Source: Phytoactinopolyspora alkaliphila (lineage in GTDB: Bacteria; Actinomycetota; Actinomycetes; Jiangellales; Jiangellaceae). From it: DNA of 64,000 nucleotides. The DNA is taken from positions 186,001 through 250,000 of the forward strand of contig NZ_JAAGOB010000002.1 of the NCBI RefSeq assembly GCF_010550695.1. The letters are read 5' to 3'. A program made the translations under genes and the position numbers. Below, in pieces: positions 5,469 to 35,730 of the stretch (the stretch's first letter is position 1; each line of letters begins with the position of its first letter). The notes under the pieces were generated by a model that was not told the origin of the DNA, made no database searches, and saw only the letters and a program-made list of their open reading frames with translations.

Positions 5469-5842
5469 CAGCTCTTCTCCTTCTTCGCGCCGTACCGGCT
5501 GCGCGCTTGCTTACGGTTCTTCACGCCCTGGGTGTCGAGCGAACCACGGACGATCTTGTACCGAACGCCCGGGAGGTCCTTCACACGACCGCCGCGCACG
5601 AGCACCATCGAGTGCTCCTGCAGGTTGTGTCCCACACCCGGGATGTAGGCCGTGACCTCGATCTGGCTGGTCAGCTTCACACGGGCGACCTTGCGAAGAG
5701 CCGAGTTCGGCTTCTTCGGTGTGGTCGTGTAGACGCGGGTGCACACGCCGCGCCGCTGCGGGCTGCCTTTGAGGGCAGGCGTCTTCTTCTTGGCGACCTT
5801 GTCCTGGCGGCCCTTACGGACCAGCTGCTGGATCGTGGGCAC
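5468..5842 (-). CDS. rpsL: 30S ribosomal protein S12
   Basis: Decoding-centre protein controlling translational accuracy. 124 residues, starting [20 protein letters not shown]. The two lysines whose replacement usually gives streptomycin resistance are both wild type: Lys43 in [13 protein letters not shown] and Lys88 in [10 protein letters not shown]. First gene of the str operon (rpsL-rpsG-fusA-tuf). Its leader carries copy B of the shared 23-base element. Confidence 0.99.
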
Positions 5843-15128: not shown

Positions 15129-15158
15129 AAAAAACGCCCCTGCGCACGGCACGGGGCG
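15129..15158 (-). promoter_or_regulatory. L10 leader attenuator hairpin
   Basis: On the transcribed strand a CGCCCC/GGGGCG stem (arms 15153-15158 and 15135-15140) is followed directly by six U residues (15134-15129), upstream of rplJ. This is the only textbook U-tailed intrinsic terminator seen in the core block. By analogy with known L10 leaders, free L10 would promote termination here. The Rfam family membership was not tested. Confidence 0.65.
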
Positions 15159-15356
15159 ATGGTCATGCTTGTTCGGCACGACGTCTCGTCTTACGCACCT
15201 GCGCGGGCCGTCCGCATGTCGCGGAACCTTCATCACGTCCGGGAACGTGAGACCGGCGGTCTTCGGCAACGGCCATACTACGGTCTCGCGCACCGATTCA
15301 CCAAACTCACGAGTCTCGCGCACCCCGACTTCGGTGACGAGCGGCTGGGCGCTAGT

Positions 15357-15527
15357 GGATCAGATGGCACAAATGCGTCCAAACGTCCCGTTTAGTCACC
15401 TGATCACTTCGCGTCCACGATGCGAGACAAGATCAGATGGCATATTCAGCCGTCTACCACAGTGTTCGTCGTCTGATCATCATCAAGGGGACGATCGGAG
15501 GACAAATCGACGATCAGGTGACCAAGG
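15357..15527. repeat. Dispersed structured repeat, copy 1
   Basis: About 171 bp that recurs, diverged but alignable end to end, at 35329-35500. Both copies contain an outer inverted repeat (here GTCACCTGATC near 15394-15404 and GATCAGGTGAC near 15512-15522). Both also contain an inner one (GATCAGA at 15431-15437 with TCTGATC at 15472-15478). Motifs of the type GATCAG(A/G)TG occur several times in both directions. This copy lies between the 3' end of the hydrolase gene and the rplJ leader. No ORF runs through both copies. Family and function are unknown to me. Confidence 0.75.
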
Positions 15528-15543: not shown

Positions 15544-17328
15544 TCACCAGCGACGGCTCTCGTCGAACGGGTCGAAGGACTGCACGATGTCGCGCAGCTC
15601 CTCAAGCTCCGGCTCGGACCATTCATGTTCCGGCGGCATCACCTTGAGCCAGGCATCCACCAGTTCGCCGCCGTAGTTGTGGGCGTGGCCCTCAGGCATC
15701 AGCGCGGACACCGCCATGTCCGCGGTGATCTGCCAGAACGTGACGAACGGATACCAGTTGAAGTTGGGTAGAACGTCCGGGCCTGGGGGTTCTCGCATCC
15801 AGTCCGGCTGGGACCAGATCAGCTCGGGCGACCAGAACGACACGGGATCGGACGCGTGCTGCAGGAACAGCACCCGCGGCTCATCCCACCCGTCGACGTC
15901 GAGAGGTTCCTGCCAGCCGGCCCAGAACCGCACGGTCCCACCGTCCTGGAATCTCGGGAGACGTTCGGGTGAACCCGGGTCCCGGTTCTCCGTGACGTAT
16001 TCACGCAGGGGATGCCAGCGCGGCGAACCGACCCAGAGCGCGCCGTCGACCTTGCCGACGAGATCGCCGATACCGTCGAACGCCGCAGCGCTGCCGACCG
16101 CGCCGAAACTCTCGCCGTAGACCACCAGCTTGGGCCGGGAGTCTTCCGGCAGCCTCGACCACCGTTCGTGGACGGCGCCGAACAACTCCTGACCGGCGAT
16201 GTCGACCTGCTCGTGATCGGCCAGGAAAGAGAGCCAGCTCGGCAGGTACGAGTACTGGATCGACACGATCGCGCTGTTGCCGTTGTAGAGGTACTCGAGC
16301 GCGTCGGCGGCGCCTTCGTCGACCCAGCCCGTTCCGGTGGGCGTGACCACCACCAGAATGTCGCGGTCGAATCCCCCGGCGCGCTCAAGCTCACGAACCG
16401 CCAAAGACGCGAGGCCGGACGGTGTCTCCGCCGAGTCCATGCCGATGTAGGTGCGCACCGGGTCCATCGCCGGCCGGCCGCTGAACACTTCAAGCTCATC
16501 CGCTGTAGGCCCGCCCGCGATGAACTCACGTCCCTTGCGACCCAGCGAGTCCCACGTGACCAGGGAACCCGGGCCGCCCGAGTGCGTCGCCACCGCCGGT
16601 GGGCTCTCACCCGCCTCGGTCTCCTGATTGATCGCAGCGAACGCGTCGTTCGCGGTGCCGAGGAGCCATGGATAGAACAATCCCGTCCATGACCAGAATG
16701 CGATTCCGGTCACGACCAGCGCGGAGGTCACTACCGCGACCGGGATGGGCACCCAGCGCGCGAAGAACCGGCCCAAGCGGCGCGAGGCACCTCGAAGCAA
16801 CCTGCCGATGGCGAGGAACCCGATGAAGATCAGGAAGGAGATGAGGATGATGTAGATGTAGTGGACCAGCCGCGGGCTGTCCACGTTCATCAGCTCGCGC
16901 AGATCGCTCTGCCATCGTGCGGAGCCGAACAGGTACCACGTGGCCACACCGGTACCGGCGACGCCGAAGACCGTCCACGCGATCAGCACGGTCTGCCGCG
17001 CCAGCGGCCGGCCCCGGCGAACTCTGCGGAACACCATGCGGATCAGGACGCCGAACAAGGAGCCGATCGCATAACCGACCGTGGCCGTGACGCCGGTCAC
17101 GAGCGCCTGGTAGTACCAGGTTCTGGGCAGCAGCGACGGCGTGAGGGACCAGCAGAAGAAGAACGTGCCGACCACACCGCCGGCGAAGTCCAGGCGCAGC
17201 CACGTGATCAACGGCCCCAGAATCGGCACCTTGCGCACCGTCGAGAGCCTGCGCTGAACCGCTGGGAGCCGCCGCCGCAGTGGCGTGGCTCGGTCGACGA
17301 GCGTGGCCATCACAGGTATGCCAGCCAT
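15544..17328 (-). CDS. Membrane-anchored alpha/beta-hydrolase family protein
   Basis: Putative membrane esterase or lipase of the Abhydrolase_9 type. An N-terminal half with several hydrophobic segments (for example GGVVGTFFFCWSLTPSLL, and IYIILISFLIFIGFLAIG) leads to a C-terminal hydrolase domain. The nucleophile elbow is VVYGESFGAVGSAAAF. The open frame extends to 17358, but that extension overlaps the rplA terminator hairpin. MAGIPVMATLVDRATPL at 17328, or the ATG at 17310, is the more likely start. The gene is wedged between rplA and rplJ, genes that are often adjacent. Substrate unknown. Confidence 0.85.
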   Translation of the reverse strand: MAGIPVMATLVDRATPLRRRLPAVQRRLSTVRKVPILGPLITWLRLDFAGGVVGTFFFCWSLTPSLLPRTWYYQALVTGVTATVGYAIGSLFGVLIRMVFRRVRRGRPLARQTVLIAWTVFGVAGTGVATWYLFGSARWQSDLRELMNVDSPRLVHYIYIILISFLIFIGFLAIGRLLRGASRRLGRFFARWVPIPVAVVTSALVVTGIAFWSWTGLFYPWLLGTANDAFAAINQETEAGESPPAVATHSGGPGSLVTWDSLGRKGREFIAGGPTADELEVFSGRPAMDPVRTYIGMDSAETPSGLASLAVRELERAGGFDRDILVVVTPTGTGWVDEGAADALEYLYNGNSAIVSIQYSYLPSWLSFLADHEQVDIAGQELFGAVHERWSRLPEDSRPKLVVYGESFGAVGSAAAFDGIGDLVGKVDGALWVGSPRWHPLREYVTENRDPGSPERLPRFQDGGTVRFWAGWQEPLDVDGWDEPRVLFLQHASDPVSFWSPELIWSQPDWMREPPGPDVLPNFNWYPFVTFWQITADMAVSALMPEGHAHNYGGELVDAWLKVMPPEHEWSEPELEELRDIVQSFDPFDESRRW

Positions 17329-17341
17329 TTCGCAACAATGA

Positions 17342-17380
17342 CCCAGCCGCGGCCCCACAACCGTGGGAGCCGCGGCTGGG
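17342..17380 (-). terminator. rplA terminator
   Basis: Inverted repeat with arms 17342-17358 and 17363-17380 (about 17 pairs and one bulge, 4-base loop) starting 10 bases after the rplA stop. It ends the rplKA transcript and shields rplJL from it. The hydrolase gene must therefore have its own promoter or depend on read-through. Confidence 0.8.
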
Positions 17381-35328: not shown

Positions 35329-35500
35329 GGATCAGATGACAATGACGGGTGCAAAGACACAGTTGGGTCACCTGATCCTTCCGCGTCCACGTTGTGAGAT
35401 CAGATCAGATGGCACAACCCTGCATCTACCGCGGCGTTCGGCGTCTGATCATCACTACTGGGGACGACCGGACGACACATCGACGATCAGGTGACCAAGG
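35329..35500. repeat. Dispersed structured repeat, copy 2
   Basis: About 172 bp aligning end to end with 15357-15527. The outer inverted repeat is GGTCACCTGATC near 35366-35377 with GATCAGGTGACC near 35485-35496. The inner stem GATCAGATG (35403-35411) pairs with CGTCTGATC (35442-35450), including one G-T pair. The 3' half (from about 35430) is the best conserved part. It sits between the MBL-fold gene and tRNA-Tyr and contains no plausible protein. Confidence 0.75.
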
Positions 35501-35648: not shown

Positions 35649-35730
35649 TGGCAGGTGTAGGATTCGAACCTACGAAGGCTGTGCCGGCTGATTTACAGTC
35701 AGCTCCCTTTGGCCGCTCGGGCAACCTGCC
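35649..35730 (-). tRNA. tRNA-Tyr (GTA)
   Basis: 82-base class II tRNA on the minus strand. Acceptor GGCAGGT/ACCTGCC, anticodon loop CTGTAAA (GTA), an extended variable arm, T-arm TAGGTTCGAATCCTA and discriminator A. CCA is not encoded. Confidence 0.96.

Follow-up and report, generated by a model that had tools for sequence, protein, structure and literature searches.

Dispersed multi-box repeat arrays of the Jiangellaceae, a probable mobile family whose boxes are candidate sites for a DNA-binding protein

The window analysed here, that is, the whole stretch of 64,000 nucleotides from Phytoactinopolyspora alkaliphila, contains two copies of a repeat that is real, new and family-wide, with a multi-box architecture of unusual strictness. 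We read it, with a probability of roughly 0.6, as a REPIN/BIME-like mobile repeat family of the Jiangellaceae, the boxes of which are candidate DNA sites for a sequence-specific protein. The family works like REPINs or BIMEs, with a different partner, and we class it as neither.

As originally predicted, the two copies are real and can be aligned over their full length with no large gaps (75% over 127 nt and 93% over the last 41 nt), and both are intergenic, copy 1 lying at the end of a hydrolase-like ORF and copy 2 beside tRNA-Tyr. Copy 1 (15358..15522, + strand; G000:C12:201350-201530 in the genome search, G000 being the window's own genome of 5.5 Mb in 33 contigs) consists of six boxes, and the consensus tail CCAAGG extends it to 15527. 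Its box 1 GATCAGATGGC (15358..15368, +), box 2 GATCAGGTGAC (15395..15405, -), box 3 GATCAGATGGC (15431..15441, +) and box 4 GATCAGACGAC (15468..15478, -) are followed by a degenerate box 5 GATCGGAGGAC (15493..15503, +), placed by the family template, and by box 6 GATCAGGTGAC (15512..15522, +). Box 6 is the stop-codon-proximal end, and the stop codon of the hydrolase-like ORF (15544..17358, - strand; known as an ORF, with its label taken from reading the translation) is 21 bp from it. The centre of the copy, between boxes 2 and 3 (15409..15430, +), is the best conserved spacer. Copy 1 also adjoins an rplJ-like ORF, upstream of which (window 15147-15357) the Rfam L10 leader has no match. Copy 2 (35330..35495, + strand, with the tail CCAAGG to 35500; G000:C12:221328-221500) has the same six boxes, namely box 1 GATCAGATGAC (35330..35340, +), box 2 GATCAGGTGAC (35367..35377, -), box 3 GATCAGATGGC (35403..35413, +), box 4 GATCAGACGCC (35440..35450, -), a degenerate box 5 GACCGGACGAC (35466..35476, +) and box 6 GATCAGGTGAC (35485..35495, +). 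It is flanked by a metallo-beta-lactamase-like ORF and by the tRNA-Tyr gene (35649..35730, - strand), whose 3' end is towards box 6. The two nested stems of the original prediction are found again as four of the six boxes, boxes 2 and 6 forming the outer inverted repeat and boxes 3 and 4 the nested one; as RNA stems they are not supported, no covariation having been found. The first box (15358 and 35330) and the degenerate fifth box (15493 and 35466) had been overlooked.

That the repeat might have no further copies proved false, as the window copies are two of at least 50 in the genome. With copy 1 as the query, 48 matches are obtained in G000 at E<=0.01. The 12-mer GATCAGGTGACC occurs exactly 62 times in the 5.5 Mb, while its reversed control occurs 0 times and about 0.65 occurrences are expected from base composition; therefore the window repeat goes far beyond chance. 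Template scoring of all G000 loci puts 50 arrays into one alignment, and on the whole an array is six 11-bp boxes with the consensus GATCAGRTGRC, starting (for the 9-bp core) at 0(+), 39(-), 73(+), 112(-), 135(+) and 154(+). The spacing is constant to the single base in most copies: among 47 G000 arrays, the successive spacings of 39, 34, 39, 23 and 19 are kept in 43, 39, 37, 38 and 46, respectively. Measured between box centres the distances are 37, 36, 37, 25 and 19 bp, so that the like-oriented boxes 1 and 3, and likewise 2 and 4, are 73 bp or about seven helical turns apart. The bases flanking the boxes are variable, and so is the base preceding GTCAC. A second conserved stretch, with the family consensus GCGTCCACATNGTGAGAC, is located in the spacer between boxes 2 and 3, and this centre spacer has a mean pairwise identity of 0.51 in G000, the remaining spacers being at 0.37-0.40. 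In other genera the arrays have five boxes (Jiangella) or six, some of them carrying an additional 19-bp unit. The boxes also have species-specific variants, for example GATCAGATGCAC in G004. At the G004 loci L277-L290 the variants are specific to position, with GATCAGATGCA in boxes 1-3, GATCAGGTGTGC in box 4 and GATCAGGTGCAC in box 6, and this sharing is an example of concerted change. An uptake sequence was considered and is improbable, since the box words occur mainly inside arrays and few are single.

We then report the distribution of the arrays, for which the facing pair CACCTGATC-N9-27-GATCAGGTG was searched with controls in 22 family genomes. The pair is found 95 times in G011, 67 in G004, 55 in G021, 31 in G014, 29 in G013 and 20 in G000, 9-11 times in G015, G010 and G018, and once each in G001, G006, G016 and G020; it has 0 occurrences in the nine other family genomes, and the controls are zero. 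Beyond the family, the strict pair is found in 0 of 225 sampled genomes of the class. A scan of 84,980 species detects it in Jiangella muralis, J. anatolica, J. aurantiaca and Haloactinopolyspora alba, which identifies the family as Jiangellaceae. The arrays are thus confined to the Jiangellaceae (Jiangella, Haloactinopolyspora and the window's genus) and are patchy there, with genomes having anywhere between 0 and about 95 box pairs. In the array-poor sister species, where the pair is found once or not at all, the counts are at control level even with two mismatches allowed, and worn relics of arrays are present, which together suggest that the arrays were lost as a set, as expected on losing a trans-acting factor. 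A phage or plasmid origin was rejected, since neither 2.9 million viral contigs nor PLSDB contain a match.

The species scan also gave single matches in Geodermatophilaceae and Photobacterium. In Blastococcus and Modestobacter (L181:3889-4000; L178:4315-4365 and 5576-5592) we observed a dispersed compact palindrome, GATCAGGTSACCTGATC, which is the array word fused to its own inverse. It has 26 and 14 copies (control 0), often paired 63 bp apart with an inner hairpin between them, and is found in none of 326 sampled genomes of the window's class; it may be a coincidence or a related recognition word. In three Photobacterium species there is a single perfect hairpin, GTCACCTGATC-N10-GATCAGGTGAC (L143:3540-3571, L184:1662-1693 and L185:6024-6055), with alike surroundings in all three.

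With respect to genes, called here by a G+C-frame heuristic that may be wrong in single cases, the arrays lie immediately beyond stop codons and are frequent in the gaps of convergent gene pairs. Among the 41 G000 arrays with both neighbours called, 24 have the convergent setting, and none of the G000 arrays falls within a called coding frame. Of the 34 neighbours that are 3'-facing on the box 6 side, 26 end within 35 bp of the array, whereas the box 1 side has 33 such neighbours, of which 8 end so close; the corresponding numbers in the other genomes are 44 and 21 on the box 6 side versus 36 and 12 on the box 1 side. Such positions, with box 6 often nearest the stop and the boxes inverted, would suit a structured RNA or terminator, in which the boxes form hairpins at the 3' end of the adjacent gene's transcript and set termination or mRNA stability. 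A conserved structured RNA was also among the readings originally offered, and the folding of copy 1, which beats its shuffles (z -2.8 and -3.2), and the changes of boxes 3/4 in G004, almost all of which would still pair as G-U on one strand (48 vs 2), speak in its favour. However, copy 2 has no such advantage over its shuffles (z -0.9), and the RNAalifold consensus fold of 50 copies has 17 pairs, 0 of them with a two-sided change. Covariation in the spacers gives no signal on 111 oriented arrays. Between facing boxes, a weak excess at variable box positions is gone within G000 (Fisher p>0.2 at position 7; p=0.03 at position 10 of boxes 1/2), and the counts of G-U against A-C show a bias that favours different strands depending on the genome and the box pair. 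Furthermore, the boxes keep one sequence where any other able to pair would serve equally, and the arrays have no match in Rfam 15 at gathering or permissive thresholds. With no covariation, no consistent strand and no Rfam match, we consider an RNA function improbable, and a protein reading a double-stranded word is favoured over it. The multi-site protein-binding array, also foreseen in the original prediction, agrees well with the sequences, the boxes and their spacing being constant and the spacers free.

It is of interest that arrays occupy the same gene ends in different genera. G000 and H. alba have arrays in common at tig, rluD, clpB, ffh, sdhB and pcrA/uvrD, G000 and Jiangella at cimA/ilvE, and two Jiangella genomes at fmt (gene names from reading translations). 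Comparing the 55 and 40 arrays of G000 and H. alba, about seven places are shared, where chance would give 0.4 with 5000 gene ends available and about 3 with as few as 700 eligible ends, so that P ranges from 4e-7 to 0.04. Past sdhB, the array is present in seven genomes of three genera (G000, G004, G010, G011, G014, G015 and G018); in an eighth, G017, one box is left at the sdhB 3' end, and the other genomes are without the array. Past sdhB in G021, G006, G012 and G016 (L248-L251) there is another inverted repeat, GTTGATCTTGGAGTAA...TTACTCCAAGATCAAC, instead of the array, apparently a second repeat dispersed at 3' ends.

At the loci shared by different genera, the boxes are 88% identical overall and the spacers 41% (about 30% when shuffled). 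Copies compared within one genome behave alike, with boxes 77-97% and spacers 37-51% identical in G000 (about 27% when shuffled) and boxes 85-100% and spacers 32-47% in H. alba; in G000, boxes 1, 2 and 6 are better preserved than boxes 3-5. Since neutral decay would wear boxes and spacers equally, we infer that selection probably acts on the boxes. The main weakness of this argument is that species-specific box variants are present even at shared loci, hence some of the sharing could come from repeated insertion at favoured sites.

Mobility is equally visible, as one of the original readings, a non-autonomous mobile repeat, had supposed: recent near-identical copies occur in J. muralis, G004 and G014. 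In J. muralis about ten copies at unrelated loci are 84-93% identical, spacers included, and six of them sit in a larger repeat ending GGGTGT...ACACCC. This MITE-like repeat of about 300 bp holds a 4-box array core (L158:6780-7050; also L156, L164, L165, L133 and L191). The recent subfamilies of G004 and G014 reach a median nearest-neighbour spacer identity of up to 1.00, and G004 copies have at least 200 bp of common sequence beyond box 1 and an abrupt end after box 6. Left ends of copies vary, and some copies are symmetric, about 227 bp long and bounded on each side by box 6 in inverted orientation. Some orthologous loci lack the array, and there the intergenic DNA is too diverged for a clean empty-site junction. 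Bacterial MITEs such as ERIC, RUP and NEMIS are small non-coding intergenic repeats able to copy, recognised by terminal inverted repeats and target-site duplications; for some of them (ERIC) we know of no partner. The arrays might then be a plain MITE family, i.e., non-autonomous transposon copies with subterminal transposase sites and no host function, whose boxes appear conserved only since active copies were selected for transposition. The recent amplification in three species, the symmetric copies, two arrays lying head to head with box 6 outermost like terminal inverted repeats, and the 4-box cores nested in the J. muralis repeat all point this way. We nevertheless hold it to be unlikely, because old copies with near-random spacers still have the core word intact in 91-100% of cases at boxes 1, 2 and 6, the occupied gene ends recur in different genera, no target-site duplications are seen, and there is no autonomous copy among the loci read. 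The arrays also keep an internal multi-box structure, in which they differ from MITEs. Overall, there is evidence for both mobility and retention in place.

Returning to the boxes as protein sites, the words are kept in related species and the DNA between them is not, so a protein probably recognises the words. Such a sequence-specific DNA-binding protein would bind the boxes on double-stranded DNA and assemble across the array, and our first guess for it would be a transposase or a domesticated transposase descendant. Bound arrays would matter at gene 3' ends, where they may stop read-through or organise the DNA between convergent genes. We put forward only tentatively the fuller possibility that nucleoprotein arrays, position-locked past housekeeping stop codons, are transcription roadblocks or convergent-gene boundaries, and that loss of the protein leads to loss of all arrays. 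As for the partner protein, the RAYT domain is absent, and no regulator recurs, by eye, among the genes that have an array at the 5' end. An autoregulated partner gene was rejected, the proteins starting within 150 bp of an array being ordinary metabolic or scattered regulatory ones.

It remains to compare the arrays with known systems. The earlier statement that no named family matches holds for Rfam and for the open literature searched, in which the box word and Jiangella repeats returned nothing relevant. The BOX elements of Streptococcus pneumoniae are modular intergenic repeats with a variable number of modules; they are modular like the arrays, with unrelated sequence, different modules and a different phylum. 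Closer likenesses are found among the REP-type repeats. An ordinary REP/REPIN/BIME family run by a RAYT transposase would share the alternating orientation, regular spacing, variable spacers and 3'-end or convergent positions of the arrays (PMC3733652, PMC2817692, PMC3116915), and the dispersed extragenic copies near gene 3' ends are indeed present here. However, the RAYT domain Y1_Tnp (PF01797) is found in 0 of 22 family genomes and in 5 of 14 control genomes, the boxes have no GTAG (or CGTC) tag on a 20-40 bp palindromic unit, and no compensatory changes of a spacer hairpin are found. Membership is ruled out by the missing transposase domain, and we regard this explanation as very improbable.

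BIMEs are regularly spaced REPs in alternating orientation, and they resemble the arrays in these two features, in lying past gene ends and in being a possible multi-site protein target (PMC2817692). They differ in that the array word is neither a REP nor a palindrome in itself and lacks the GTAG tag, and in that box number and order are fixed in the arrays. The CGTC-tagged repeats described in 2013 likewise have no dedicated transposase known and lie less than 20 bp from the 3' ends of convergent genes, as do the conv-REPs, within 20 bp of 3' ends (PMC3733652); they are short hairpin units with CGTC at one end, in contrast to an array of 165 bp. REPINs, or REP doublets (Bertels and Rainey 2011), are extragenic, have tens to hundreds of copies and consist of two conserved inverted words around a less conserved spacer constrained mainly in length (PMC3116915), all of which is similar in the arrays. 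Their populations, also long-lived and tied to some lineages, last millions of years while their RAYTs are inherited vertically, and models treat these populations as beneficial for the host (PMC8049555); by analogy, such persistence with a host benefit would fit the Jiangellaceae arrays. REPINs differ in having two boxes, compared with five or six in fixed order, in having a RAYT, and in their common compensatory changes, whereas array spacers are without covariation. REPINs have raised the question why small repeats last millions of years in compact bacterial genomes. The Jiangellaceae arrays are a second, independent case, without the RAYT transposase and with a richer measurable architecture, and since they persist past the same housekeeping genes in different genera while sister species lack them, they make the question of persistence testable.
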